64,000 nucleotides of DNA from Pyrenula massariospora (lineage: Eukaryota > Ascomycota > Eurotiomycetes > Pyrenulales > Pyrenulaceae), in the NCBI GenBank assembly GCA_021030905.1, contig JAGFMI010000014.1, forward strand, positions 1,054,001 through 1,118,000, written 5' to 3'. Positions within the stretch are counted from its first letter, which is position 1; every line of letters begins with the position of its first letter. The translations under genes were made by a program, and so were the position numbers. Below are positions 3,212 through 64,000 of this stretch, one piece after another. The notes under the pieces were generated by a model. The model ran no database searches and was not told the DNA's origin. It worked only from the letters and a program-made list of their open reading frames with translations.

Positions 3212-3662
3212 GATGCAGAGAATGTTGAAGAAATTCAGTTTTTTCTAAGTAGAAAGATAGGGAAATTTTCAGTTTTTGGTTTTTGTTGCTGCAACAGAGT
3301 TTACGGGTGTCACATATGATGAGAAAAGATGACAAGGAAGCCAGTATATCGTTGATATAGTGAATGTTGAGAAATATGGTCTTGACTCGGCCAACATCTA
3401 AGTGTATAGATACATTCACCAATCCGTGACTGCTGCATAAACGTCCAAGTATCACTCAATGGCCTTCAAAGACAAAATTTCTCACTTTTTACTCTTCATA
3501 CTACGACTCGATCTATATGGTCACGATAGAGCTTCGAGGTATGAAAAATATTGAGTGATATGTGTGAAAGCTTCTATAGTATGATGATATTCATGGTATT
3601 GATTGGAGTGAACGAGATAGAATAAGGTCTAGACTACACATTGGTCTTCTTCCTGATTCCGA
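3212..3662. other. Intergenic, nothing recognised
   Basis: AT-rich spacer between the start of the RBR gene and the end of the next minus-strand gene. It presumably holds the RBR promoter. No motif could be assigned. Confidence 0.5.
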
Positions 3663-4338: not shown

Positions 4339-5017
4339 AATTAAAACGATTTATCATCAATTTGAAAATGAGCTTTGGGTTGATTAGAAAATCCTTAAAA
4401 CGAAATTGCACATTTTTTCTCCCGCTTTTATGTCGTTCATCACGGAGAGAAGAACGTTCACAGCGGTGAATAAAGATCAAGGAGGTCAATTAGAGCAGTG
4501 AAGTAGTTTGCTTGTTTTGCAAATGTAGAGATCAGGCTGAAAATTTTTCCATCAAAAAGCTCGTTTAATTTAACAGCCGTGCATTGATGTGCCTTCCACA
4601 ACAGCATGGATGCCAGAATAGCAACGTTCCTGGAGCCTTATGATGGCTCATAAAGAAAGACCCTTTGTGTCATAGGCAATCGAGTTTCTCGTGTTTGGGG
4701 GCCAATATGTGAGCGCCAGCCAGAACAGTTAGGCTAAGAGCCGTGGGCCTATCGGCTCCGCATTCTATGCAGGGAAGATTCGGAAGATCTTATATCCGGC
4801 ACTCGGCGGCGCAGAATTCACAGCTGTGTAATGAGCCTCGTTTGGATTAGAGAGGGCAGAGAGGGAGAACGGTAAAAGTCTAGGCGGATACATGAAGACT
4901 TTTGACTGTAGTCTTTCTGTGGATTTTAATCTCTTAGGACCTTCTTGGTAAGAGTCCTTTCTACTTGAGGAATCTTTGATCACTTAATCTATTTAGCCTA
5001 GGACTCAACGTGACGTG
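4339..5017. other. Intergenic, upstream of the APSES gene
   Basis: No supported gene. It lies between the divergent starts of the orphan membrane protein (minus) and the three-module transcription factor (plus), so it probably carries both promoters. Confidence 0.5.
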
Positions 5018-7944
5018 ATGCAAGCTGGCACCGACCTTCGCGCCGTGAGACCGATCCAGGTCCACGGTCTACCAACACCACACGGTAGTGCGAGCCCATC
5101 ACACCACTTTCCAACGCGCCACCAGTCATCATCGCGCGTGAGGAAATGCGAACAATGCAGGAGGTTGAAGCAACGGGTACGTCTTCGATCCCACTCGTTC
5201 TTTAGATTTGTCTTCAACTGTGAGCGCTCAAATTGATAGTGTAAACCTCTATGTGGCAGCTTATTATCGGATGAAGAGAAGTGTCAACTTTGCATGGAAT
5301 TGGGAAAAGAGTGTGGCCCAAAGATTGCCGCTCAAGATCTTCCGCAGACGCCAGCTTCCATTCATGAACCATTTATGCCCTATAGTTATCATCAAACCGT
5401 CCAAAATGTCTATGAGCAATGGCAAAATCACTTGCCCAAAGGGTTTGATACGACTGGTCAAGTGGCTCCTCCTGGTGTGACGCCAAAGTTAGCGGCAACC
5501 TTGTGGGAGGATGAACGTACATTATGCTTTTCGGTAGAGGTGAGGGGAGTATGCGTGGCTCGTCGGGAAGACAATTGCTTCATCAATGCCTCTGAACTAC
5601 TAAAATTAGCTGGCAGGATCGAAAGTGAATTGTATGGTATATTGAAGTCCGAAAAAACATGGCGTGTGGTAAGGAGCGGGCCAATGCACCTAAGGGGCTG
5701 CTGGTAGGTAATTTATCGCATCATCCTGTGCGATACTCATAAGAACAGGATCTCTTTCGAACGAGCTCTTGCTCTGGCGAATAAAATGAGATTGACAGAA
5801 GATTTATATCCCTTATTTGTCCATAAAATTGGTGTCCTCCTCTCTAGCCCGCCAAAGGACCCCGATATGACAATAAAAGATTCGACGACTGCATTTATTG
5901 AAGCACAGCCAAAAGAGCAGCACACAGTTAGACTAGATGCGCCTTCAATGAATAGCCACCCCGCCATTACCATGCATCAATCTCGTGTGGCATGTCATGC
6001 GAATGAAAGGGATCGAAGGCTTTACGATGAAGAGGCCGTTCAAATACCGGAGAAAGAGGCTGATACAGCTTCTCCCAATAAATCAATCAATACTGCAATA
6101 TTCAATCGCTGTACGCCTCCAATTTTTTTGGCAGAACATTCGAGAAAAAGAAATTTTGATTCGGATTGTCCTGAATCTCGTGTTGATTATACTTACGACC
6201 TTGAGAATCATTCCATGAAAAGCCAATGTCCATCACCACCTCAGCCATCATCTCTCCCAGTCCTTGGTCATACAAAGATACTAAACAAAGAGACCCAATC
6301 ATGTGCAGGTGGACAGCTTTATTCCGAACCACACAATGACCAAGAAGCAGCCTCACTGTCTACAGCCCGTAAGGCAACATCGAGTCCGTCATCGCGTGAA
6401 TCTTTGAGCCCATGCTAGAACTATGAGAACCAGTCTCCACAGTTGTCGCAGTTCATTTCTCGGTCAAGTACAGTATTTCTCAAGCTTTACTTGAAAGTTA
6501 TAGCGGCTAGATATCCATGTGAATCAAACGGAGGAAACTCGACAAAATCAAAGCCGGCGAAAGAAATACCAAATCACCAACATGACTCACGACATGCAGC
6601 TGATTCTCGTAAAGGGAAGCGCAACAAACGCTGTAGGGGCTCAGATGAAGAAGAAGATGAAAGTCATAATTCGAAACGGCCACGCTATGGCCTTCAAGGT
6701 GCTATTAACCCTGAAGATCGACCTTTGGCGTGTCCGTTTAACAAGTACGACAACACACTATTTGGTCCGGACTCTTCTGAAGAGAGCTATCATGCCTGCG
6801 CGACGTGTAGCTTCGTGAACACTGCTCAGCTAAAGTGAGTATCACTTCTAGGGAGAAGGATTTGATTTAAATATCTTTCAGGCAACATCTTCAACGAAAT
6901 CACTACCTCCCTAAATATTACTGTTTTCGTTGTTGCAGGCGCGACTTTTCATCTCAGTCGATGATTGCATCGCATCTCCGCGAAGAACCGATGTGTGAAA
7001 CACTTGATCCTCCCCTGTACCGCGAGAGAATTGGCGAAGATCTAATAGAAGAGCTTGGTCTTGATCGCAAGAACTCACCAGGAACAGACAGAGTTGCATT
7101 TTGGCACAAAATATACGAAAGGTTCTTCCCAGGCGCAGCAAAGATTCGCCCCGTGAGTCCATGTGAGTGAGATCGGTTGACCTGATGCTCAAGGCTGCTA
7201 ACAAGTGCAACAGATTATGACGGTCCGAAATCAGAGCATCTGAATCATTTCCTTCATTTCACTACTCAGTTGATGGATGTCGTATATCCAATTATAAGGG
7301 AGCGGCTAGGGCTGCAGGAATTCTCATCGGCGAACAGCCAACAACAAATTCAGCAGGAGATTCTGCAGCAGGCAGGACAAAGATATTTGCAGCACATCTC
7401 CGAGGTACCTCAGCTTGGACATTGGGTGCCGAGAACTGTACCGGGAACGGAAAATACTTCGAGAAGTACAGACACGCCAGCTGATGGCGAACAATTCGCG
7501 GGTAGAACGTCTAGAGCCAGGTCGCTATCCCCAACAACTCGACCCATTATTCCGCTAGCCGACAGCCTGAATATTTCTTATAACTCCACAACAGCATCAT
7601 CGCATTTAATTTCACCAACTTCCCCTCAAACTCCAATCGCGGGTACAAATAACCAGCCAGCTTCGCATGGCCAAGAACAGGAAGGACCGCCCCCGAACCA
7701 ACAAACGGTGTCTGATCCTGTGACCGACGTCCAACAACATGAAGATACTTCGAACAACCTTCATCAAACCAACAACTACGACAGAAGAGAGATCTTGGAT
7801 GGTCTACCAGGAGTTTCCTTTGACTGGGAGGCGGAGATCGACACTGCACTAGCATTCGATGGCGAAGAGTTCTCTCTCAAAGATAAGGATGATATTGGTT
7901 TCGACTGGCTCGCTCATAGAGACGAAATCATTCCATCTGGCTAA
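5018..7944 (+). CDS. Zn2Cys6-APSES-C2H2 three-module transcription factor
   Basis: Proposed exons: 5018-5176, 5240-5703, 5749-6368, 6504-6834, 6882-7162, 7214-7944, in phase, about 861 residues. Residues 44-78 form a fungal zinc cluster, C44-x2-C47-x6-C54-x13-C68-x2-C71-x6-C78, with the basic RRLKQR segment between C47 and C54. The first intron sits just before C54. Residues ~140-240 are an APSES (KilA-N-like) DNA-binding domain: [24 protein letters not shown], then HLRGCW, then [12 protein letters not shown] and [13 protein letters not shown]. After a disordered linker comes an acidic/basic patch (DEEEDE...KRPR). Residues ~513-563 hold a CATC...H....H finger and a CFRC...H...C finger, typical of a fungal C2H2-like family, followed by a Gln/Ser/Thr-rich tail. 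A TAG at 6416-6418 lies in frame, so an intron (6369-6503, or to 6473) must remove it for the fusion to exist. The C2H2 part has no in-frame ATG of its own near its start. The alternative is two adjacent genes. All three domain calls are firm; the join is inference. Confidence 0.7.
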
Positions 7945-8827
7945 TACTTAGAAGCTTTAGAGGTCTCTAGCCGCATATCCTCGACTTTTTCGACAGAAAA
8001 ATGGATGTCTACTTATGTACATGCACGCAAGTCAGTGATCTCGCTTAAACTTCATTACAAGCTTGCATCAACGGAGAACCAGAGTCTCCCAATTGATTAT
8101 CCCTCCATCTCCTCTCCAACCCCTCTTCCTTCCCTAGTTCATCCCCTTCCCAGCATTTCCCAAATAAACCCATTCTTCCACGTCCGGAACCTCGCAGTAC
8201 CCAGCACTCGGTATCGATGACCTACACACGGCACAAGACAGAAAACGCATAGACAGCGTATAAATCATGTCTTGCCCGCGCGATACGCCATTGCTCATCC
8301 CCATCCAAACCAAAGTCTTCCAAAATCCGGCGCATCGACGCGTCATTAGCCGAGAATTGCTTCCTGCTTGAGAAGCAATTCCAACTCCAAGTACTATCTC
8401 AATTCCACAGCTTTCACCTTGACTCATATTTTCACCACCGCCTTAGAAATTTAGGGCGGAAGAGTGCGAGTATTACGTTAAGGGGCAATGAAAAATTGTT
8501 GAGTACGCGTGGTTTGATTAGGAGTCCTGCGCGGGCGCCACAGGCTTGGAAAATGAGATGAGCTGGGATGCGGCAAGTAGAGTCATGAGCATAAGGTGGC
8601 TTACCGTTACGTGTACGATGAATTAATTCTGGAGAGTCGTAGGTTTCCCTTATATTTTAGGAGCGATATTATACGACTCTTTACCGTTAGCCTCTTCTTT
8701 AGCGGAATTCGGATTATCGCCTTTCGTGTCTAATGCATCTTCTGCCTAGTTCTTCTTCGGCGGAATTTGAACAATCTACTACTATGTCTAGGTCATCTTC
8801 CCCCTCGTCATTTTCTCCAAGAAAGTT
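7945..8827. other. Intergenic between convergent genes
   Basis: 3' flank of the transcription factor and of the ankyrin NLR. Short frames on both strands have no family signature. Nothing else recognised. Confidence 0.5.
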
Positions 8828-11800
8828 TCAGACACCATCATCTTCAGCCCCTCTTTCACACAGCAACCTCACTATTCTTGTCCTTCCCAAACGACGCGCT
8901 ATACGAAGTGATGTCTCTCCATAGAGTGTTTTCTGATTAAGGTCTGCTCCGTTGTCAAGCAGTAGAGGTACAGCAGCTTCATTGTTGATTGAGACTGCAC
9001 AATGCAACGGACTGAAACCTCTCTCGTCCCGAGCATTAATCTCAGACCCTTTATTCAGGAGTAGCTCCATAATTGTCTGCTGGTATTTCCATGATCGCGA
9101 TGCAACATGAAGCGCTGTCCATTCATACCTTCCTTTTATATTGACGTCAGCTCTATAGTCTAATAATAGTTGCGTAATCTTCTCATTGCCAATTTCGACC
9201 GTCTCATGCAATGCAGTCTCACCATAATTGTCTTGAATATTTGTATCGGCCCCGCTATCTACCAATAGCTGCACAATCTTCTCATTGCCGATGCCGACCA
9301 TGTTATGCAAAGGAGTTCTTCCACCGAGATCTCGTATGTTTACATTGGCTCCGTTGTCCAACAAGAGCTGCACAATCTTCTCGTCACCTATATGGGTCAA
9401 CTTCTGCAAAAGAGTCCTTCCGGCAATATCTTGTATGTGTAAATTAGCTCCGGCGTCCAGCAAGAGCCGCACAACCTCCTCATAGCCTTTATCAGACGCG
9501 ACATATAACGGAGCTTTGGGAATATGGTCTGGAATATTCACATCGGCTCCATTTTTCAACAAAATTTGCGTAATTTCCACGAAATTGTGTTCTACTGCAA
9601 GGCATAGAGCGGTGTCATTAACATCCACGTTCGCATGTGGCAATGTAGCAAAGAGAACTGTCCCTCTATGGACGTTAATATTAGCACCCATATCTAGCAG
9701 CAGCTTTACGATCAGCTTATGGCCCGAATCGGACGCGGCATGTAATGAAGTCCCGATGTAAGGGATGGAGCTATTCCCTTGCGCTTCAAGGATGCATTTC
9801 ACAATTTCAATGTTCTCTCTGCCGATACAGTCTCGGCAATGATCGGCCCAGAAGGGCACGGAATAGGAAAGAAAATGGTATCCTTTGCAATAATTGTTTA
9901 CCACCGTCGGCCTTCTATAAATTGGCAGTAATGAATGGCAAAGACCCATACGTTTCAAATCCAGGTTTGAGATCATAAATGACCGTAGACAAACGGTCTG
10001 CATGAGATATTCTGCTTTGTGGCTGTCGAAAGACTGCTGCCAGCGCTTTGAGACTGGCAAAGTTTTTTCGTTTCCAAGTAAGTATTCCTTCACCGTCTGA
10101 TGGATGAAGTAGACCCTTGACCTCACTATTGAGATAATTAATCCACATTGGCTCGAAAGAGAATATTTCAAATGAGCAGCTCCAGCTAAATCTATTTTGT
10201 CGTGACGGGCGTTTGGATTTTCAATTGCAAGAGCCGCATCCAGCTCATCCAGAGTTAGGGGTCTTCGAGCGACCAGGACGAGCTGCAGTACTTTCCTTAC
10301 GTAATCTGGGTCATCAACTTGTTGGATTAATGCTTCGTAGGCTTCATGAATCCCGGTAGGTAAATTGTCGATCAAGTCGTTCATCGCCGTAATAGTGGCA
10401 GGGCATTTCTTTGGAAGTATCGCAAATATGAGCCGAAGCCAAAGGTACGTTCTGTTCTCCATCTCTAGGAGTCTTACTTGTAAATGATGTCTGACACCAT
10501 CTGAAAGACCAGTTCTTCTTGCGTATTCTGCAACTTTTGATCTGATCACAAGATTGATTTCTTTCTTAATAGACTCTGACTCGTCTGTGCCAGCCAATTC
10601 AATCAATAAGACTCTTTGGAGAAGACGACCAAGATTGTACTTGAGATGCGCATAAGGGCGGCTTGTGATCAGAAACTTGTGACGTGCATGATGCGAAGTC
10701 GAGCCACCAATCTTCCCATTTCGAGATTAATGTCGATTGCTCCTCTTCGTTACACTCATCAAGGGCATCAAAGATACAGATAACTTCTCCAGCCACAGGG
10801 TCAGATAGAGCAGTTACAAAGATGGACCAAAGTTCTTCAAAAGATTTCGAGATGTTCTGCCCAACTCGGTTGAAGCGCGTTAGCGCGTATTTGATCAAGA
10901 CTGTGTTAGAATCAAAGAGCTGGTGCAGCATCGCCGATATAGCTCTGCATACACTTCGCTGTTCAGTGCTTGTATCTTTAAAGAAATAGTACAGCACATT
11001 CATCGTCGGATGATCACTGTAAGCTCGTGGAAGATCCTCGTCAATGATGCATCTAGCGAGCACCGACTTTCCACAACCTGGATCTGCACTTATCCATAGG
11101 AAGTTCGAATTACTGTTTTCGATATCAATCCATTCTGTGTATTTCGGATTCTGCAAAGCCCATAAGCATGTGTCTTTCACTCGCTTCGGGTTCTGATTTT
11201 TCTGTGACTTGTAGTCGATTCCGGTCGGCCAAAGCGCTTGAAGACATCTTTCTTCTTCCTTCGTCAGAGGCCTGATTCAGTTAGTAGGTGAGGTCAAAAA
11301 TCTTCTTTGGAATGTACAGTCAGTTATACCTCCCAGCAACTGGTAAATTTATTACATCTCCTGGATCCATAGTTAGGAGGATTTCACGTGCCACGGTAGC
11401 AGCAGTGGCTGCAGCATAACCTTTCCATTGATCGTTTTTGTGACTGTCAGCATAATCCGATAACCCTCTGATCACGAGGCAGTTCTGTCTGTCGAGGATT
11501 CCTGCAGCTTCCATCTCAATACTGATAGCGTCAAGGTCCTTTCCGATCCGATCTCTTCGATTAGCGTCATTAACAACCGTATCAACACAAGCAATGGTAC
11601 CGAAATGTAACTGAAACTCTTCTGTTTCTCTTTTTGGTCTATGAACAATCCGATCAACTCCACATGCCTTGCAGGTTGCCTGATCTCCAGCCACATGGCG
11701 ATGGTCCGCTTCATACAGATTATCGGAATGAATTCCAGGAGATGAGAATTCATCTTTTGCGGTTTTATTCTGGGTGCATCGATCGAGGTGTTCTTGAAAT

Positions 11801-12297
11801 TTGGTGTAGCCAAGGATACGATTCGACTGAAACTTGTTGAGCACGTTCAGAAGTCGCCGTGCCGGTGGTGGAAGGATGCTGCGAGATTCCCAGTGTATGA
11901 GAGCTTGTTTCTTATCTCCGTCCCACCCAATTACTACGTCACCGAGGTGGATATCTTTGACCGATTGTGGCGCTGTATTCTTTCGGGGAATCCCACCGCC
12001 GATTCCCACTAAGAGCGTTGCTCTGAGACTAGGAAAACTTCGACACAGTGGATTAATAAGATGCGCCGCAGATATGAGACCGTTCTGCCGTAGAGGAAGA
12101 CTGGCTATCACGATGTTGTGGTTGTTGATGGAGCCACAGGTGTATATATTATCATCACCTGAAACGTCCAGGAACGGCGTCCGATGCTCCTCATCCAGCA
12201 TCAACCTCACAGCGGTAAGTTCAATCGCCAAGGGACAGATGAGTGCGACGGTATAATCTTGAACATGAAGTTGTCGTGTGTATCTCGTGCTCGGCAT
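8828..12297 (-). CDS. PNP-NACHT-ankyrin NLR-like protein with a frame break
   Basis: This belongs to the fungal NLR class linked to non-self recognition. Exon 1 (12297-11330) encodes a nucleoside-phosphorylase-like domain: DYTVALICPLAIELTAV near the start, VGIGGGIP, IHLGDVVIG, then EMEAAG and VIRGLSDYADSHKNDQW. A 58-nt intron (11329-11272, with TACTAAC as branch site) leads into LTKEEERCLQALWP and a NACHT domain with P-loop ADPGCGKSVLAR (GKS near residue 391) and Walker B ICIFDALDEC. The next family motif, KFLITSRPYAHL, lies in another frame. The shift falls between about 10735 and 10670, and I found no usable intron there. The remaining ~600 codons to 8828 are open and end in about nine ankyrin repeats. 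ATG at 12297 was chosen because the frame upstream has no ATG. It is probably a recently broken gene or a sequence error. Confidence 0.85.
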
Positions 12298-14286
12298 TTG
12301 AGAGCTTGTTGGATCGGTCGATGTCTCGACCAGGCAGGAAAAGGCGCCGAAGAACAGCAATCATGATCTGTCAACATCTGGCATTACAGCGTGAGATTTG
12401 ATAGAGCAACATTGAAAGAAGGAATCCCGAGAAGGAGACCGTCGATGGTTTCATGATAGATTGTAAAGGCGAAAAATCTTGGACCTAGTCTGTCACCATG
12501 TTTCTGTCGACGTGCAACTTTTGCGGCTGAAAGGCGAAGCAGGCACAGAGTACGAGAAAAAAGAAAATAGGGGAGGACGATACAAATGGTGTATGGGCAC
12601 TTACTTTCATTGGTAATTTAATTGCGGAGGACATACCGACAAATCAAACCTTGTCTGTTCGCAAGGCTGTCACTTGGAGTTTCATGAAAAATTGGAGCCT
12701 ATTGGCGGGGCGAAGCAGGGGCATCATGAAAGCCTAGCAGAAGGCGACAAATCTCGCAGATGAGGCGCTTACCACCTGGGATTGAGAGTTTTCCCGTCGC
12801 TGATAACATGTAACGATATTGGGATATCCTGTAGATAGACCTGTCGGGCCCCAGCCTAAATTCATGGATGAAGAGAGACGACATTCCGACAAGACGACGA
12901 CCATGAATTGACAGGGTTTGTAATTGGTATAGGGGAAGTCGTACTACCACTACTTGGGCCGTGCCGGCTTGGGAACAGTGTGGCTCTATTTGATTGGTCC
13001 AAAAAGAGAGTCCATTTCTGGCCTTTCATGGGATTTTCTAGGCTTTGCTCCTGCCTCGCCTCGGACCGAAGGACCAACTCCATCCCCACACGACTCGATT
13101 CGTGCCTCAACACTGGCACAGCAGTAAGCTATGGCCAACCTCGGCTCGAAAAACAATTAAAAGATTATCTAAAAGCGTCAAGTTTATTAAAAACAATCGT
13201 TTGAGTTCCAGGGCAGAGATTATTTCCTGCTTTCCAATCGCCAGGCACCGAAGTACTCCTATTTCCGAGGCCTCCAGCCGCAAGACCTCATCTTCCAAAC
13301 CTATAAGCATCACTTCAGCCTATACTAATAGAGATCCCTGAAATTGAAAGATAACTCCATAAGAACCTCTTCTCTGGCCCACCACGCCTATAACATTTAG
13401 GCATCCCCAGGACGTTGCCAACAGCAACACCTGCCACCTGCCCAGATTGTACAAACCCAGAAAAAGCAGAATCTTCCAGCCAGAACAGAACGGGAAATGG
13501 TCTTTGCAGTATCCCTGATCCTACCTTCTTTGAAACTATCAACACCACCCCCAATTCCCCAAAGTCCCCAACACCGCACCCGCTCCGCACCCGCCACCTC
13601 CGCCGCTACCGCCGCTGGTGGCGAGCCTGTAAGTGTGTGTCTAGTGTCTATACATAGGACCATTTCAGTCAGTCGGGCATTCGCCCTTACTACCATGGGC
13701 GGAAAGTGGATGCACGTAGAGATCTGAGGACGGTGGCTGTGCGTGTTAGCGTGTAGATAGGGCGGGGAGGAGGCGTGGATAGGGTGTGAGGCGTGCTATC
13801 GAAGAGAGGAGAGGTGGGCAGGTCGAAAGGGTTCAAGGTGATGTGACGTGAGAGGGGATGGTTTGATGAGGGGGGGTCTTTTTTATGGTGGTGGGAGATT
13901 AGAGGATCTTGAATAGCTTGCGGACGGTGTTATAATAGATTGGCCTTAACAGATTCTGCGAGAGAGGTAGGCGGAGTCACGAGACAAATTCTGCTTGTTC
14001 ATTGGAATGAGAGCAAGATGCTGATTATTAAAGCTGCCAAAACCCACGGGACAATAATCCCGCACTAGGCGGAAAAGGAAATCCACAACATGTACGCTGA
14101 CAATAAGTCTAGCCGTGTCAAGGAATGTAGGCCCGAAGGCAGCATGGAACATGTCTATGCCATACAGTAAAAGCAGAAAAATAAGGAAAATAAGTCAGAC
14201 ATATATCCCGCTGCCCGAAATACTCATACAGATCCTGGACATTGCTCCAAGAGTACACCTCGCAATGCTGCCGAATATATCAGAAG
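12298..14286. other. Long intergenic stretch, no gene supported
   Basis: About 2 kb upstream of the NLR. It contains several short overlapping frames in a C-rich (plus) region around 13400-13700, which look like compositional artefacts. A G-run lies near 13868. No element ends, no repeats and no RNA gene were recognised. Confidence 0.5.
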
Positions 14287-15269: not shown

Positions 15270-16138
15270 TCAAGAGAATGGTGAGACTGCTCGCTCTTGT
15301 TCAGCCACTGCCTGTTGTACAAGTGCTCGCTGTTGGGCTAAATATCGATCATATGCCCGTGGCCTGTCTGCATCGCATCGACAGTTAGGTAAACCTTTAA
15401 CGTCCGGCCAGGTACCTCCGCAATTATAGCAAAATTTCTGCCGACAGTGGCATCTAAAACGGTGTCAGTCAATGTTGGTTTCGATCACTGTTTTTCCGGA
15501 ACTTACGCTACGATAACGCATCCACCATCCTTTTCCACCAGTCTCTGGCAGTTTGGGCAGGTTGCCCATTTTTTCTTTTTAGCTAGCTTCTTCAGCAACT
15601 CGAGATTGACAATTTCCTCAAATTCCTTTGCAGGAGATATAAGAAGACAGCCGCCTTTCCAGTCGTGTTCTTTCGCCGATCGTTTGCAGGAACGACAGGT
15701 TGCCGCTTTGCATTTGCCGCAATATGCACCATGTCTCATCTTAAAGCAGCGCTTCGACTCCTTAGACAGAAATGCAGAGCATTGAGGATCCGAGCAGTAA
15801 GTCCTTTTCTCGGGTGGGATGGTGTATTCTTTAGCCCTTTCTTGATACTGCTCCACAAGGTCTGCTTTCAGAAAGCGAGCGATTGGCTGAAGGGCTGCCG
15901 GCTGGTTGCAACATCTAGCAGGAAAGTTGTGTTCAGTGAGTGCGAAACCAAATAGCGTACCAAGACATCCCCGGCACCAAGAATGGAGGCATGGAAGAAC
16001 GGCGAGGTCTTGGACAGGCGACATATTAAAGCACACCGCGCATTTGGCCTGTAGCGAAGGTGGATCTACTCCATAAAGAATTGCGGCATTTCTTGGACGT
16101 ATCAAACGACGTGCAACTCGAGACAAGGTATTGAGCAT
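15270..16138 (-). CDS. RBR (RING-IBR-RING) E3 ubiquitin ligase
   Basis: Exons 16138-15507 and 15453-15270 are joined by a 53-nt GTAAGT...TTTTAG intron, in phase, giving 271 residues. RING1 is CAVCFNMSPVQDLAVLPC, HSWCRGC and RCC. The IBR region has CSDPQCSAFL, CGKCKAATCRSCKR and H. RING2 is split by the intron: CPNCQRLVEKDGGC in exon 1 and CHCRQKFCYNCGG in exon 2, so the catalytic RING2 cysteine is present. A short helical tail (RYLAQQRALVQQAVAEQERA) ends the protein. It is small for an RBR ligase and has no N-terminal targeting domain. It resembles the gene at 2258-3211 in layout (FPARCC, intron in RING2), so the two are probably paralogues. Confidence 0.85.
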
Positions 16139-17606
16139 CTTCTTGGATAAGGTCGTGAGTATTTTGGACTCGAAATTTAATCTTTAGTCACCCTTGCAGG
16201 AAAGAGGTTCCTTGCATTTTGTTGAAAATTGTTAGGCCGCCTGGATGTTTAGTCGTAGAGAGCAAGGAATATAGCCAGACTGGAGATCAGAAGGAGCAGT
16301 GGTCTATCATAGATGCTCGCGCCAGATGAAATCACGACTGTCCAGGAAAGATTGAGCTATAGCATGCGGTAAGGCCTAGATTTACAAATTGAATAGCGGA
16401 TTAGTGGTAAAAGAAAAAGATCGAATTATGCTTCAAATAAGATCTAGGGCGTTCATAAGTCGAGCGACAACCGTAGAGATGGAAAAAGCCACCAGGCTAA
16501 GGTCTTGTCTTTCACCATTTGGCCAGCGGACTTTGCGTCCATGGTAGACTAGGTATTACTGGATTGGCCTGCTCTTTGGATGAAAGAATGTGCCGGCTTG
16601 GACATGTGCGGACAGAACTATCGTAGTTCCATAACATGTCGTAGATGGACGAATTCTTTCATTGGTGATCACACGATGGAGCCGGCCAGCCTGAGTCCGT
16701 TCCGATCCAGAATAACGGTAGAGCGGGGACACGAAGATAACCTACACAATGCGTCCATTTTCAAGTCCAATTCAGAAAATTGTTTTGGCACGTTGACTGG
16801 ATTCCGCTTCGGCCTCGTGGATACGGCGTGAATTTGCGGCTTTGTTGACCATGCCTTTAGGAAGCTTTGTAAGTGCGTTAGGTCGCATAGGTTAGGTCAG
16901 TCGCGAGGCACTGTTTGCCTTCCAACGACTCGCAGTGCAAAATGATTGCAGCCTGCTTGTTATCCTAGAGCTCTCAGAATGAACGTTTCTAGGCCTCACG
17001 TAGACTGCCCAGCTGTTCCGTGAGCCACGATCAAGCAGTCTAGTCAGCAGTCTTGTCAACCAAGTCGGATGCCTGCCCACAGCATGTCAGGCTCAAGCAA
17101 ATCCTATGGTTGAAGTGCTGCTGACCGAGTGCTCTCTGAAAGGGCGCAAACATGCTCATAATGACGCTCTACATCATCCCCGTCCTAAATCACAAGGCTG
17201 AAGATTTTCTTCCTCCGTGACCGTCACGTGTAAGCCTAACCCTTTCTGGGCTTATACCTCTTCCTACGCTGCAAAGGACCTTCGTCAAGCCGCTTTGAAT
17301 ATGACTCTCATGCCGATCCTAACCGCCCGAGATATCCCCTTTAGGCCGGGAGTTATGAGGCTTCCTACTAAAACTTTCATTCGCGAGGCGCCGAACCAGC
17401 GTATATACTGTTCTAGCAGCCACACATCACACCACCTTAAGAGGTTCAGGTCAACATTAACCAGGCCACAAGGACTTTGAGAAAGGACATGTTCGCTATA
17501 AAACATCAATTTTTCACAAGCCTCACATCAAGTATTCTATTCAAACAAATCCAGACCACAGCAACCCACCATTTCTCACCCAGAGTTCACACCCGCCAAT
17601 TTCACC
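16139..17606. other. Intergenic with a candidate TATA box
   Basis: No gene is supported over about 1.4 kb. Near its right end TATAAAA occurs at 17497-17503, about 104 nt before the ATG at 17607, and a C-rich leader follows, as is common in fungal 5' UTRs. Confidence 0.45.
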
Positions 17607-47880: not shown

Positions 47881-49633
47881 CGTTGATTCCGAGACACCAA
47901 TAACTTTACAGGGTCTGACGAATGTATGTACTTTCAAGTAAGCTCTGTGGGAGCTAGTCTCAAGCTATGATAGATAGACAGTTTTGTATCCGTGATGAAA
48001 TTTTGGTCGCTATCTTGACTAGATGAGCCCACCAGTGTGATAGCGGCGTTACGCCAGCCGTGCGTGTGGCTGACTGATTCTCGGCCTGTCATTGGTAATG
48101 ATTATGCCGGCAGCTGCTGCGCTGCGACCCAATCATCTTCAAGGGATAATGTGGCGCTTGAAATGCTGGACGGTTGATGATGAGGGCAATGAACGAAGGG
48201 AGCACGCTATCTAGCACCGAACATGTCAGGACTATGTCAAAAAGCAATGAGCCCTACAGCCTAGGTGCAAGAGAAGAAAAAAAATCATAGAAAATCTGTA
48301 AAGTTTTCTACGAAATCCGAGTATTATTCCATCCATGCTGATGCCTACATTCGCGCCACCACCGCAAAAGTCGCTGGCCGTCTGTGGGCAGATCGCTGAC
48401 GCTGATTTGCCATACGAGTATCAGACCTGTGCTCGTAGACCCTCTAGACACAGCCATTCTCTCAAACTCATCACACTCCCCAACCTACCCTCCCTTCTCC
48501 TTTCACAACTCGTCCTCATCCTCCTCATACAAACCTTCCTTGCACCACCACCGACATTCTCTTACCCTTTTCGCCCTCTCTCCCAAACACACCACACCGC
48601 CACTCGCCAACCACAGCCAGAGACCACATGCCCCTACCTCTCAACTCTGACCTCCATTCTCTTTTCTCCGACATCCCCGCCGCGGCTAGGCAGGCAGGCA
48701 GTGGGCTTTGATGAAGCGATCTGGAGAGCACGCGCTAGGACGAGACGGGTTAATGGTGTCGGCTAGCGCGAAGCTTCTGAACGGTGATGGTTAGGTTGAG
48801 ATTGACGTTGAGAATATACGGTGCTGGTGGCAAAGGGGTGATGGTGATGGGGAAGAAAGGTTGGAGGCTGGGAGAGGAAAGATGGGGGGCTTTGGGGGAT
48901 TCTGTTCAGGGTTCGGCATAAGGTAGGCTAGGGGTAGGTATAATAGGGAAGCGTTTGGGGGATAATTTATCTAGGGGTACGATATTTAGGGTAGGAGTTA
49001 GGGGGATATTTAGTAGACGGTGCTGGAAGGTAAGGGAGTTAGATTTAGATATTCCTATAGCCTTTAATATTCAACACCAGGGGAGAGGACCGTATATTTG
49101 ATGAAGTCGGTTGGAAGCTTGAGCTGTTTAGTTTCGTATTACTGAAATGCCGCGACATAATGCCTTTATTTGATACGTGGGTGATATTTGTTGTCTTGTG
49201 AGTGATAAAATTCTCTCGACAACGAAGCACAGGTAGAGAGAAGAAGTTTTTGGGCTTGATTCCCAAGTAAGTATTGTCTCGAATATTCTGCAATCGATAC
49301 AATTCTAGTTATTCATTGAGTGGTATTTTCCCTCGGTGCAAAGTAAGGCTCGGATAGGCCGCAGCCCGTGATAGGTGACGACGGTGACGAAGGTGCTAAT
49401 TGAAGAGGATGAGAACGGTGAGGATGGTGACGACGGTGAAAAGGTGAATGCGATGAGAATGGTGAGTCTTCGTCGATCCAGCTGCCTAGTATTCCAAAGC
49501 TTTATATATCGATCCATTAGAGCCAATTTTCTTCCGATCCGCTGTCTTGCGGATCTACCAAGTATCAATTCGACAAAGAAATTGGTACTCTGATAGAAGC
49601 CTCCATACTTCAACCTTTAAAAGCCCAACCAAG
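47881..49633. other. Long intergenic stretch
   Basis: HET promoter side and upstream of the next Cys-rich gene. A C-rich frame at 48335-48766 is low-complexity (Leu/Pro/Ser/Thr) and not favoured. From 48850 to 49030 there is a G-rich plus strand with repeated TAGGG(G) words. No gene is supported. Confidence 0.5.
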
Positions 49634-59729: not shown

Positions 59730-62700
59730 TCAATCCCTTGCGATTTGTTCAATCAGCCACTCGCTTCTCAGCTTTTCTAGCCATTCTTTTCTGAGCACCA
59801 AGTTGCCTCCCACACCATTCCTTGCCATATCCTCGAATCGACCTTCCGGAATTGGCCACGCCTGGTACCACTTGTGATTGGCATTGCACTGGCGCCGCTG
59901 CTGCGTATCATTCTTCACGAGCTCGAGACAAGCGTCGCAGAAATTCGTGTCGTGGCATACTTCGCAGAACCACCTAAGGAGGGGAGAATATGAGTTCGTG
60001 TTTCGATCTTTGGGGCAGAAGTAACTCGGAGGTGACGATGGAATCGCAGGCTGAAATGAAAGAGGGAAGGAAATACTGGTCCGGAGCGAAGAATGGAGAA
60101 ATAGGGGATACGTACATTGACCCTGCGTCCTCGGCGTCCTGTTCACATCCATCGCATGTATACATCCAAGCATCTGCCTCAAGGTGGAGTTCGAGGATCG
60201 AGGAAGCTTTCGTTGACGGGGCGTTTGGTAAGGTAGGCATAATGCTCCTGACATCTAACGGCCGGTTCAGTTCAGCTTGTGATTCTTCCCGCATGACCGC
60301 TGAGACGACTTGATCACCCGATGTTTCGGCGACAGGTGTTGTTTCGGGCTCATTGACGACCTCCCGACCTTCACTCATGAGTGGCGCCGAATCCTTTTCT
60401 TTGAGTTCCTGGCGTGCTCCGCTGCAATTGCTTCCCACTACCGCTTCATCAAGTCTCTCGGTTTCTCGGCGGGCTTTCTCTTCTAAATAGCTTTCCAAAG
60501 TCTTGAACAAGGTAGCCACGATGGAAGCAGCGTTTCGCTCATCCCCGGCTTGGAACAAAGTAATTGCAAGAGTCCCACAAGCAGCAGTATCGTTAGTTGG
60601 GTCATCATCGTCCAGGCCGTTCATTTGCTCCAGTAACCTGGACCTAAAGCACTTCTTCCATACCATGTCATCAGCTCTTGCATAATCTCTTAGCCAACGG
60701 CCCCAAAGCAAGGCAGAATAGCTCGGCGCATAGTATTTGACGACATCTTCATTATCGCTAAGACCTGCGCCGACTGCTGTCGCCAAATCTTCGAGTTTTG
60801 CGGCCAGCTTGGAAGAATCACGGCCACCTAGAAACCGCAGGTGAGTATCGGTGCAGTCGCTTAGAGACTTGTACACTCACTTTGATGGTTTGCAGCAGCT
60901 AAGTCGAAATACATTTGTGCCATCTTATTGATGTACCATGTAATCCAGGACCTGATGTCGCGTTGAGTCGCAGCATCAGTCGCTCTTAATCGAGCCAGAG
61001 CCTCCTCTAAAAGTCGCATAGGCTCTTCATTTTGGTCGTACCATTCATACCGAAAGATCGCCGTCAGGCAGAGATTTTTGATAGAAGCAGCATCATGACC
61101 CTGAGAGAAGAGCTCAAGCGCCTCGCTCATAGCGCGGAGGAGGAATTCAGGAAGATCGCATTTTCGGCAAGCTGGACCGAATACATTTCGGATGCCGTAG
61201 TCTCTCAGAAAAAGAACCAGGTTGGAGCATTCAGATGACGTTTGACAATTATCAAGGCACTGGAGCACTTCGATCAACGTCTCCGACTGGCCGGCTTCGC
61301 CGAGAGCATTTATATAAGCATTGACGGCCGGGAACGAATCATGGTTCTGGTCAAAAGCTCTATAATTCGAATCAGTACTCAGTACCAAGGTCACACTACC
61401 AGGTCATTTCAATTCCACGAAGGAGCAAGATATGCAAAGGAGAGGATCTTATTGCTTGCCTTCTTGCAATTTCTAGCGCATGATCATGGTCGCCGATTGC
61501 CTCGAGCCAACCGGAGCAGTATCCTTGTAGATATGAACTAATACCGTTGTCTTTCATATTTTGTGGCATAACAGAAATTGCTTTGTTGATCCAATCGATG
61601 GCCGTTTGGTAATCCTCTCGTTGGGCAAGGCAGCGAGCTGTGGCCTCCATCGCGACCCAAGCATTTTCGTCCTGTCACAAGGTGCAAGTCAGCTCTGTCA
61701 ATCTCATTTATCGTTGGACGAAGGAGTATCTCAAGGCGAGAGAGTTTAAGTTTCTAACGGGCAGGTAGGGCAATTACAGTTGCCGTTGAATATCGGAGCA
61801 TACTCACCAATTCAATCGCTTTTGCGAGTAGTGTCAAAGCTTTGTCATAATTCTCTGACTCCCACAAGATCCATCCTACGCCCGTGTACCAGTGCGTAGT
61901 CTTCTCTAGCCGAGCCCATTCCGCCATCGACTCTATCTCCTCAGCAGTCATTTCGTAAAAGTTTCCGTCTCGTGCCCAGTGGAAGTTCAGAGTCTGGTCA
62001 AGGACTTTACCATCTTCATCTAAGGTCAGATAAGCTTTGAGAAACCCGACTTGGAATTCTGATTTATCTGTGTAGGCATCGTCATCATAGCCAGACTTGG
62101 TCAGCCACATCTTGGCAGCTGTCGTTGCGAGAGGTTCTAGCAAGCATCGAGCTGAGTCTGAGGCCGATTTCATCCACATCTCCTCGTCAGTGACCTGTTG
62201 AGAGAGTGTGTGACTCTGCTTAAGCCAGTGTTGGATTTGCTCAATATTAGCATTACTGTGGAACCATGTACTCCAAAAATCGTCGCATTCACTCAAACCT
62301 GAGAACAACGACCGGCACCCTGCTTCCTCATCTATATACGGTGAGTCAGTGTCCGCCGAACCTAGACCAATCTGAAGGGGTTTTTCCCTTACGGAGTAGC
62401 CAGTACAGCCCTTTGACAATATAATCTCTTTCATCAGCCTCAAGGTGTCTTTTGTCAATGGTCCCCAAGTGGCTGAAGAGGTTATAAGTGGGGTAAGAGA
62501 GGTAATGGAATTGGAAACATCCTAGAGAATGTTAGAGGACTTCTAGGTCTTCCAAAGGGAAACCGAGTGTGTATCAAGCATTGGATGCACAGGAGTGTCA
62601 TGAGTGGCTGCGCTTTTACCTTTCGAATGAGCAAGCCGCATCATCTTCAGACAATCGATCACTATGATGATGTCTGCACGATGAACGTTCATGAGGATGG

Positions 62701-64000
62701 GCAAAGGCTCGTGATGTCGCGTCTCAGGGTGTCCCTCGATTCGGACCATGTCGCGGAACCTTGTATGTGCAAATTCGACGATCGTCATCTTCTGATACCA
62801 GTCGTAATTTTCATCGGCTTCAGTATTGGCATCTGTAGGAGAGCCATTGTTATCATTGAGAAATTCCTGCTCAGCGTCGACAAGGTCATCTGAGTCTTTT
62901 GACGAAGAAGCATCGCTCTCGTCGTTAAGTGACAAGTGCATCGCTCCCGATGCGACACTCTCTGCCTGATCATCAGCTATCTCTACCTGAACTTCATCAT
63001 CTTGCCGTGGGTCAGTGACAGCATCGGGATCGTAGCCTTTTGGATAACGTAGCCTGAATATGCTGGCAAATTTTCCAGTAACATTGGCCCATAGCATCCA
63101 GTTGGTGGTTCTAGAATCCACTCTTGCAATGACATCGAGTTCCCCGAAGTTTAATGGTCGACGAGCAAAGGAAACCCATGTCAGAATCCTTGCCGTAGTA
63201 TTTGAGTCAAGCTCTGGGTCTTGGGACAGCCTCTTTAGGACAGAGAAGATCATGTCATCAAGATTGCGGGGCGGCGTAGCCAAAAGCTTGAGAATTTGGC
63301 CCTCATCTTTGCCCTTCATTTGATCGAGAATAAGTTGCGCCTCCACAATGTACGGTCAGAATTAATCATGCAAGAGTGCGGATGAGGCCCATACCCAAAG
63401 AAAGACTCCATCAGCTCCATCAAGAACTTTTTTCTGCACAATACGTACGAATTTCTTGGATCGGTCTTTAATTGCTGACTTCTTGTTCTTCATCTCCTGA
63501 ACTACTGCAAGTTTTTGTATACGGTCCAGGATATAATTTCTCAGATCTTCGTGATTCTTAAGTGGAGATACAAGAATAATCTTCTCTTCTCTATCGAAAT
63601 TCATCGAGTGAAGGTCTGAACGTAATTCTGACCGTCCGAAGATAGCAAACTGAATTCTATGTGGTCGACCTGTGCGCGTTCCTGCAACATAATCCTTGAA
63701 GAGCGTGAGTAGTCGATATCTTGTGTCATAGCTAGCTTCATCGAGCCCATCAAATACGAGAATTGTCATATGCCCTTCAGCGGCGGGGGATTGGTAGAAC
63801 TTGAGGAACACATTCTCCCAGGTGTCCTCAGCTCGAGCAGTATCGCGGGTAATTTGGCAGACCGCTGCAGCGTGCTGCTTGAACGCGAGATCTGTCTGTT
63901 GCAGCTGCCATGCCATTGTCTTGAGAATTAAGTTGGGATTACGTAAGCTTTCTTTATCCTCTCTGATATAGAAGTAGCCAACTGTGGTTCGATGAGTGAC
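59730..64000 (-). CDS. NACHT-type protein with TPR-like region and ZZ-like finger (partial)
   Basis: The 5' part lies beyond the right edge. From 64000 the frame is open: YFYIREDKESLRNPNLILKT, then MTILVFDGLDEA (Walker B of a NACHT-type ATPase), FAIFGRSELRSDL and the winged-helix-like ARILTWVSFARRPLNFGELD. A long helical-repeat region follows, with TPR-like pieces (WVAMEATARCLAQREDYQTA, ALEIARR). The C-terminus has CDGC, WFCEVCHDTNFCDACLELV and CNANHKWYQAWPIPE, a ZZ-type zinc finger. Exon ends that keep phase: 63396/63340, about 62551-62580/62522, 61808/61671, 61460/61359 (GC donor), 60881/60827, 60116/59973, stop at 59730. The join near 62550 is the least certain. The P-loop is not in the window. 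Confidence 0.8.

Follow-up and report, generated by a model that had tools for sequence, protein, structure and literature searches.

On the forward strand of the 64-kb stretch of fungal DNA analyzed here (the window), positions 5018–7944 are predicted to encode an unusual transcriptional regulator. As read from its translation, a chimera of a zinc-cluster motif and a StuA-like APSES domain stands, and a fusion that adds a third, finger-like module is probable and forms our leading model. In its complete form, to which we give an even chance, this model predicts that 5018–7944 is one gene for a three-module chimeric regulator of 871 aa, whose in-frame TAG is removed by a predicted 105-nt intron.

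Two coding blocks lie within these limits, with two introns each, set by frame, splice sites and phase. Block 1 runs from the ATG at 5018 to an in-frame TAG at 6416–6418 and encodes 430 aa containing the zinc-cluster motif and the APSES domain. Block 2, which uses the frame of block 1, stays open between 6419 and the intron at 6835 and ends at a TAA at 7942–7944. The upstream and downstream open reading frames thus share a frame and are separated by that one stop only, and the finger frame holds no Met codon in 6419–6834. The sequence-only reading had described three modules in line, in one direction, with phase-consistent introns; the modules, the plus strand and four clear introns were recovered, but the single continuous frame was not, since the TAG interrupts it and the fifth intron that would restore it is a prediction. 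A tblastn search found no second copy of the three modules within the window, the next best match having an E-value of 0.091. The coordinates of all features are collected in Table 1.

Table 1. Features of the predicted regulator locus in the 64-kb window.
Feature	Positions	Strand	Description	Basis or status
Exon 1	5018..5176	+	ATG start, Cys 1 and 2, basic RRLKQR stretch	Frame and splice site
Zn2Cys6-like cluster	5147..5314	+	C-x2-C-x6-C-x13-C-x2-C-x6-C, split by intron 1	Below Pfam cut-off
Intron 1	5177..5239	+	Phase 0, 63 nt, GTACGT...ATAG	Frame, splice site and phase
Exon 2	5240..5703	+	Cys 3-6, StuA-like linker, first two thirds of APSES domain	Open frame
StuA-like region	5441..5842	+	APSES/KilA-N proper 5540-5842, split by intron 2	Pfam KilA-N, Mbp1 structures, StuA comparison
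Recognition-helix segment	5615..5638	+	RIESELYG, K62/R65 region	PCG2 alignment
Intron 2	5704..5748	+	Phase 2, 45 nt, GTAGGT...ACAG, interrupts a Trp codon within the APSES domain	
Exon 3 (fusion model)	5749..6368	+	End of APSES domain and linker with basic patch	
Rival start codon	6336..6338	+	Context CACAATGAC, other frame, overlaps end of first open reading frame	
Candidate junction intron	6369..6473	+	Phase 1, 105 nt, GTAAGG...TTCAT...ACAG, spans TAG 6416-6418	Predicted only
In-frame TAG	6416..6418	+	Stop of the 430-aa protein if the junction intron stays	
Exon 4 (fusion model)	6474..6834	+	Short hydrophobic segment, basic/acidic stretch KGKRNKR...SKRPR, start of finger region (LACPF, CATC)	
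Finger-like motif 1	6797..6903	+	C-x2-C-x10-H-x4-H, split by intron 6835-6881	Below Pfam cut-off
Intron between exons 4 and 5	6835..6881	+	Phase 2, 47 nt, GTGAGT...TCAG	
Exon 5	6882..7162	+	Finger-like motif 2 and region behind it	
Finger-like motif 2	6922..6996	+	C-x2-C-x13-H-x6-C	Exon 5
Intron between exons 5 and 6	7163..7213	+	Phase 1, 51 nt, GTGAGT...CTAAC...ACAG	
Exon 6	7214..7944	+	C-terminal region, acidic aromatic tail, stop TAA	

The N-terminal cysteines lie at C44, C47, C54, C68, C71 and C78, a 2-6-13-2-6 spacing across residues 44–78 that bears out the zinc-cluster pattern with a longer loop proposed earlier, and an additional Cys58 sits inside that loop. The Zn2Cys6 pattern is C-x2-C-x6-C-x(5-12)-C-x2-C-x(6-8)-C, and zinc clusters usually occupy a position near the N terminus of their proteins. 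Measured against this pattern, the predicted protein has all six cysteines in order, but its loop is 13 residues long and carries one extra Cys. When cysteines were placed at random and scored for a Zn2Cys6-type pattern (loop 5–16, last spacing 6–9), the pattern arose in 5 of 300,000 trials for the whole 430-aa protein with its 17 cysteines, and in 8 of 300,000 trials for the first 90 residues, which hold 7 cysteines. The Zn_clus family (PF00172) stayed under its Pfam cut-off of 21, with 11.1 bits for the whole protein and 15.0 bits for an isolated 49-residue segment, and the same segment retrieved no Zn2Cys6 chain among solved structures up to E 10, returning two unrelated hormone chains only. 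We therefore speak of a putative, divergent zinc cluster, not of a proven one. Its linkage to the APSES domain is firmer: exon 2 (5240–5703) is one open frame that encodes Cys 3–6 together with most of the APSES domain, and because it is uninterrupted across both, the APSES domain and at least some of the zinc-cluster motif are joined in one protein.

The APSES domain had been read as complete, and this held after removal of the intron at 5704–5748: KilA-N (PF04383) matched residues 158–235 with 25.2 bits, above the Pfam curated cut-off of 23.8. Four solved Mbp1-type sequences were also matched by the APSES part (E 0.002 to 0.019). Across the linker and the APSES domain, 73 of 121 residues (60%) were identical to a StuA sequence that had been entered by hand and not taken from a database, so that placement in the StuA subfamily is best regarded as a strong lead. 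On these grounds the APSES part looks StuA-type; the sequence-only reading mentioned neither this nor the altered recognition helix. Like the members of the StuA/APSES subfamily (StuA, Asm1, Efg1, Phd1 and Sok2), it has the linker FDTTGQ-APPG-P, the APSES domain and the wing GPMHL-G-W; it differs from them in its N-terminal zinc-cluster motif, the helix segment RIESELYG and the possible fusion to fingers. With Mbp1 and PCG2, of the SBF/MBF branch of KilA-N, it has the winged-helix domain family in common by sequence, yet it is without the Q-x-G-x-G-x-x-Q wing motif, without the K62/R65 contacts and without ankyrin repeats, for which Pfam gave no match in either half. Structure prediction from single sequence, run on two contiguous exon pieces, was of low confidence (mean pLDDT 47.8 and 50.6). 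Protein-based scans of viral, bacterial and archaeal contig collections yielded nothing usable for the APSES part, and the finger part gave one locus in the viral contig collection with an 18-residue match only, which we set aside as chance. Because these collections consist, by their descriptions, of viruses, bacteria and archaea, the absence of relatives is silent on fungal orthologues.

The recognition helix of the APSES domain appears to have changed. In the published account of the PCG2–DNA structure, K62 and R65 of helix B touch DNA, as do Q82 and Q89 of the wing, and most base contacts come from the wing and not from helix B (PMC4333399). In our phmmer alignment, K62 and R65 fall on the E and the L of RIESELYG, so that both basic contacts are missing, while Q82 and Q89 align with Arg at both positions; among the helix A contacts, K56, a backbone contact, aligns with Lys and H53 with Glu. 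In StuA, both wing positions are occupied by Lys, and the helix contains the basic stretch TRGRRDG. The wing is thus StuA-like and the helix is not, because basic Arg residues stand at the wing positions and RIESELYG takes the place of TRGRRDG. From this we infer altered or weak DNA binding by the APSES domain, a view tempered by the fact that the wing of PCG2 makes most base contacts and that the wing here is basic; with such a wing, DNA binding by the APSES domain may persist. That KilA-N domains can mediate protein contacts has a precedent in Bqt4, MtgA and FspTF, in particular in Bqt4, whose KilA-N domain is described as binding DNA moderately and unspecifically and as mediating protein contacts (PMC10375492). 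Those proteins combine KilA-N with a membrane tether, and FspTF, as described in the same source, has a coiled coil and a membrane helix at its C terminus, where the present protein would have a zinc-cluster motif and possibly fingers.

The C-terminal half is the more divergent part. Canonical C2H2 fingers follow C-x2-4-C-x12-H-x3-5-H, and both finger-like motifs depart from this spacing. The C2H2 families PF00096 and PF13894 remained under their Pfam cut-offs, the best score being 16.4 bits for zf-C2H2_4 (cut-off 27) on a 58-residue segment, and no C2H2 family reached E 1 or better on the whole 475-residue finger part. PRDM9 fingers did match the finger part with a whole-sequence E-value of 0.00097, a value that sums three weak stretches, the best of which alone has E 0.83. 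Of the C2H2-like fingers reported initially, two finger-like motifs were thus retained, with a spacing off the canonical one and scores under the Pfam cut-offs. The region LACPF...SPYYDG recalls what we take to be a widespread family of ascomycete C2H2-like proteins. The protein ends in an acidic and aromatic tail (about 7810–7941, +) that closes with GFDWL; the last 60 aa contain 16 acidic and 5 basic residues, and by this composition the tail looks like an activation-type domain.

Fungal factors with two classes of DNA-binding domain are known, and the combination proposed here is absent from the classes listed in the two surveys consulted. In the dual-factor table of a survey of 191 fungal TFomes, a zinc cluster is paired with C2H2 in 140 genomes and with C2H2 and a homeodomain in 64 genomes; the table has no APSES row, and since it omits dual factors found in <5 genomes, a rare APSES fusion could be missing from it (PMC5415576). 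In the entries of that survey's family table considered here, APSES stands alone (PMC5415576). Botrytis cinerea was counted to have 4 APSES domains, and in the lists given, none occurs among its 16 two-domain factors or among the 10 of Trichoderma atroviride (PMC8637145). These tables and lists, as far as they extend, agree with the initial remark in which the combination was not recognized as a described architecture. Among the matches listed in our literature search, no title or abstract opening of an open paper described a protein of such architecture, a scope in which body-text descriptions could be missed, and the search found no paper printing the protein's peptide motifs. Among the closest known parallels are Cmr1/Pig1-type factors, which unite C2H2 and Zn2Cys6 modules in one fungal protein, as proposed here, and for Cmr1 the same survey relates that deletion of either domain had an effect (PMC5415576). 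In the Aspergillus nidulans C2H2 plus zinc cluster group, the fingers adjoin the cluster, in most cases at the N terminus, and the survey's description of the group mentions no APSES domain (PMC5415576); in our model, an APSES domain and a long linker lie between the cluster and the fingers. As to dual specificity in the sense of two DNA-binding classes in one protein, the zinc-cluster motif and the APSES domain share an exon, only the latter passes its curated cut-off, and binding is a prediction.

Whether the fingers belong to the same protein depends on the junction across the TAG, and here the single regulator with three modules that had been proposed is upheld in part: the zinc-cluster motif and the APSES domain share an open exon, while the finger part hangs on the predicted 105-nt intron. 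We scanned for phase-matched GT-AG introns of 40–200 nt across the TAG, taking donors at or after 6200 and acceptors no further than 6600, and obtained 29 candidates, the best donor being GTAAGG at 6369. The GTAAG motif is scarce in coding sequence of the window: its eight long open reading frames (14,625 bp) contain it 3 times in sense and 15 times in antisense orientation, and pairing a GTAAG donor with an acceptor of matching phase bridged 0 of 3755 in-frame positions. With the looser donor GTRNG[TGA], 11.6% of 3755 random in-frame positions were bridgeable, and 278 (7.4%) when a branch site was included. The acceptor ACAG at 6473 has the required phase and is preceded by a YTNAY branch site at a distance of 18 nt, and removal of 6369–6473 gives 871 aa with no internal stop. 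From the same donor, further in-phase acceptors lie at 6497 and 6503, with branch sites 8 and 14 nt upstream, and at 6533 and 6563. At 105 nt, the junction intron would have roughly double the length of the four clear introns (45–63 nt). Intron 1 (5177–5239) has no branch site at the usual distance, and because a clear intron is without one, the branch-site criterion is not strict. The 33 codons of 6369–6473 have a codon bias of -0.050 in the joint frame, under about 90% of 408 coding windows, and another frame in this interval scores 0.146; because coding and non-coding sequence are poorly separated here, with exon 1 at -0.093 and exon 2 at -0.026, both below zero, codon bias is not decisive for the junction. 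A scan for bacterial promoters and terminators was disregarded because the DNA is fungal.

The surroundings of the locus were annotated from their open reading frames. Downstream and convergent with it, PNP_UDP_1, NPHP3_N and ankyrin open reading frames lie in line at 12360–8831 (-), NACHT scoring below its cut-off, and 8831–12360 (-) is, by this prediction, a fungal NLR-type gene with PNP, NACHT and ankyrin parts. Its NACHT (10602–11276) and ankyrin (8831–10726) open reading frames overlap near 10602–10726 in different frames, an arrangement that points to a frameshift, an overlooked intron or an error in the sequence. IBR/RING-type half fingers like those of RBR ubiquitin ligases are encoded upstream at 3244–2261 (-), below the Pfam cut-offs, and at 15506–16183 (-), above the Pfam cut-off for IBR. 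A heterokaryon-incompatibility (HET) domain (E 4.2e-22) lies in an open reading frame of 668 open codons at 47964–45961 (-), and the translation at the right window edge (62546–64000, -) was judged by eye to be NLR-like. Regions of this kind presumably turn over quickly.

Three other explanations of the locus deserve weighing, two of which concern the junction. There could be two genes, a 430-aa zinc cluster plus APSES factor (5018–6418) and a finger gene that begins at the ATG at 6336, inside the end of the former, and has an intron from 6369. We consider this arrangement rather doubtful, in spite of several features that accommodate it: the start context CACAATGAC agrees with the fungal consensus, 12 introns are possible from this ATG (donors 6369, 6384 and 6396), and donor 6369 with acceptors 6418, 6433, 6442 or 6451 would give introns of 50–83 nt, near the lengths of the clear introns, while a fifth acceptor at 6484, which has a YTNAY site at a distance of 29 nt before it, would give 116 nt. 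It requires, however, that the second gene overlap the 3' coding part of the first and be transcribed from a promoter within that first gene; YTNAY is absent 6–40 nt upstream of the four short acceptors, although clear intron 1 likewise is without a site at the usual distance, and the ATGs of the finger frame within 5900–6720 (5948, 5972 and 6215) all precede the TAG. The ATG at 6423, just past the TAG, was rejected as a separate start of a finger gene, no intron being listed for it (donor score at least 4, introns of at least 45 nt). Alternatively, the fused gene may be broken, the TAG being a nonsense allele or an assembly error in a frame that formerly was, or in truth is, continuous; the short product may still work. 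The open reading frames on both sides of the TAG, in one frame and divided by a single stop, fit this, and the neighboring NACHT-ankyrin gene, for whose frame change near 10602–10726 no intron is established, points the same way: because its two parts differ in frame, damage or sequence errors are possible at the locus. We nevertheless hold breakage to be unlikely, since a plausible predicted intron spans the TAG and the frames are still open on both sides of it. Repeat-induced point mutation (RIP) as the origin of the TAG is not favored either, as the dinucleotide ratios over 4900–8000 (TA/AT 0.63; (CA+TG)/(AC+GT) 1.34) are not RIP-like.

The remaining explanation bears on the other end of the protein, holding that an ordinary StuA-type APSES paralogue lies beside a finger gene and that the N-terminal cysteine motif forms no working zinc cluster. 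The Zn_clus scores, both under the cut-off, the 13-residue loop with an extra Cys between Cys 3 and Cys 4, and the absence of a Zn2Cys6 chain among the solved-structure matches all speak for it. Six cysteines in Zn2Cys6 order together with the basic RRLKQR stretch, a cysteine pattern that so few of the shuffles reproduced, and their location near the N terminus, the usual place of zinc clusters, speak against it, and we regard it as very unlikely.

Under the three-module fusion, which we prefer, the gene would derive from a diverged StuA-type APSES factor and its product would be a nuclear regulator whose N terminus carries a Zn2Cys6-like cluster and whose C terminus is fused to a divergent C2H2/C2HC finger protein that ends in an acidic tail. 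Splicing of 6369–6473 would take out the TAG at 6416–6418 and join the halves in frame. Target recognition would then come from the zinc cluster, and the APSES domain would either bind DNA differently or weakly, perhaps via its basic wing, or serve as a protein-protein module as in Bqt4; the C-terminal half would bring the finger module and the acidic activation-type tail. Retention of the junction intron would yield the 430-aa zinc cluster plus APSES form, devoid of fingers and acidic tail. Going further, and as a long shot, the protein might be a StuA copy with a changed DNA reader, in which the APSES domain no longer selects targets and instead competes with or recruits StuA-type partners, the zinc cluster picks the targets, and the product switches between a short form devoid of the activation tail and a long, activating form that includes the fingers, depending on whether the intron with the stop codon is kept or spliced out.

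Fungal development is under the control of APSES factors, and the two surveys consulted list no APSES protein that has a further DNA-binding domain. A StuA-like copy with a zinc cluster, without the basic contacts of the recognition helix and perhaps linked to a finger protein would represent a natural domain-swap experiment on how regulators acquire new targets, and it would make testable the idea that a soluble regulator can retain a KilA-N domain for the sake of protein contacts.
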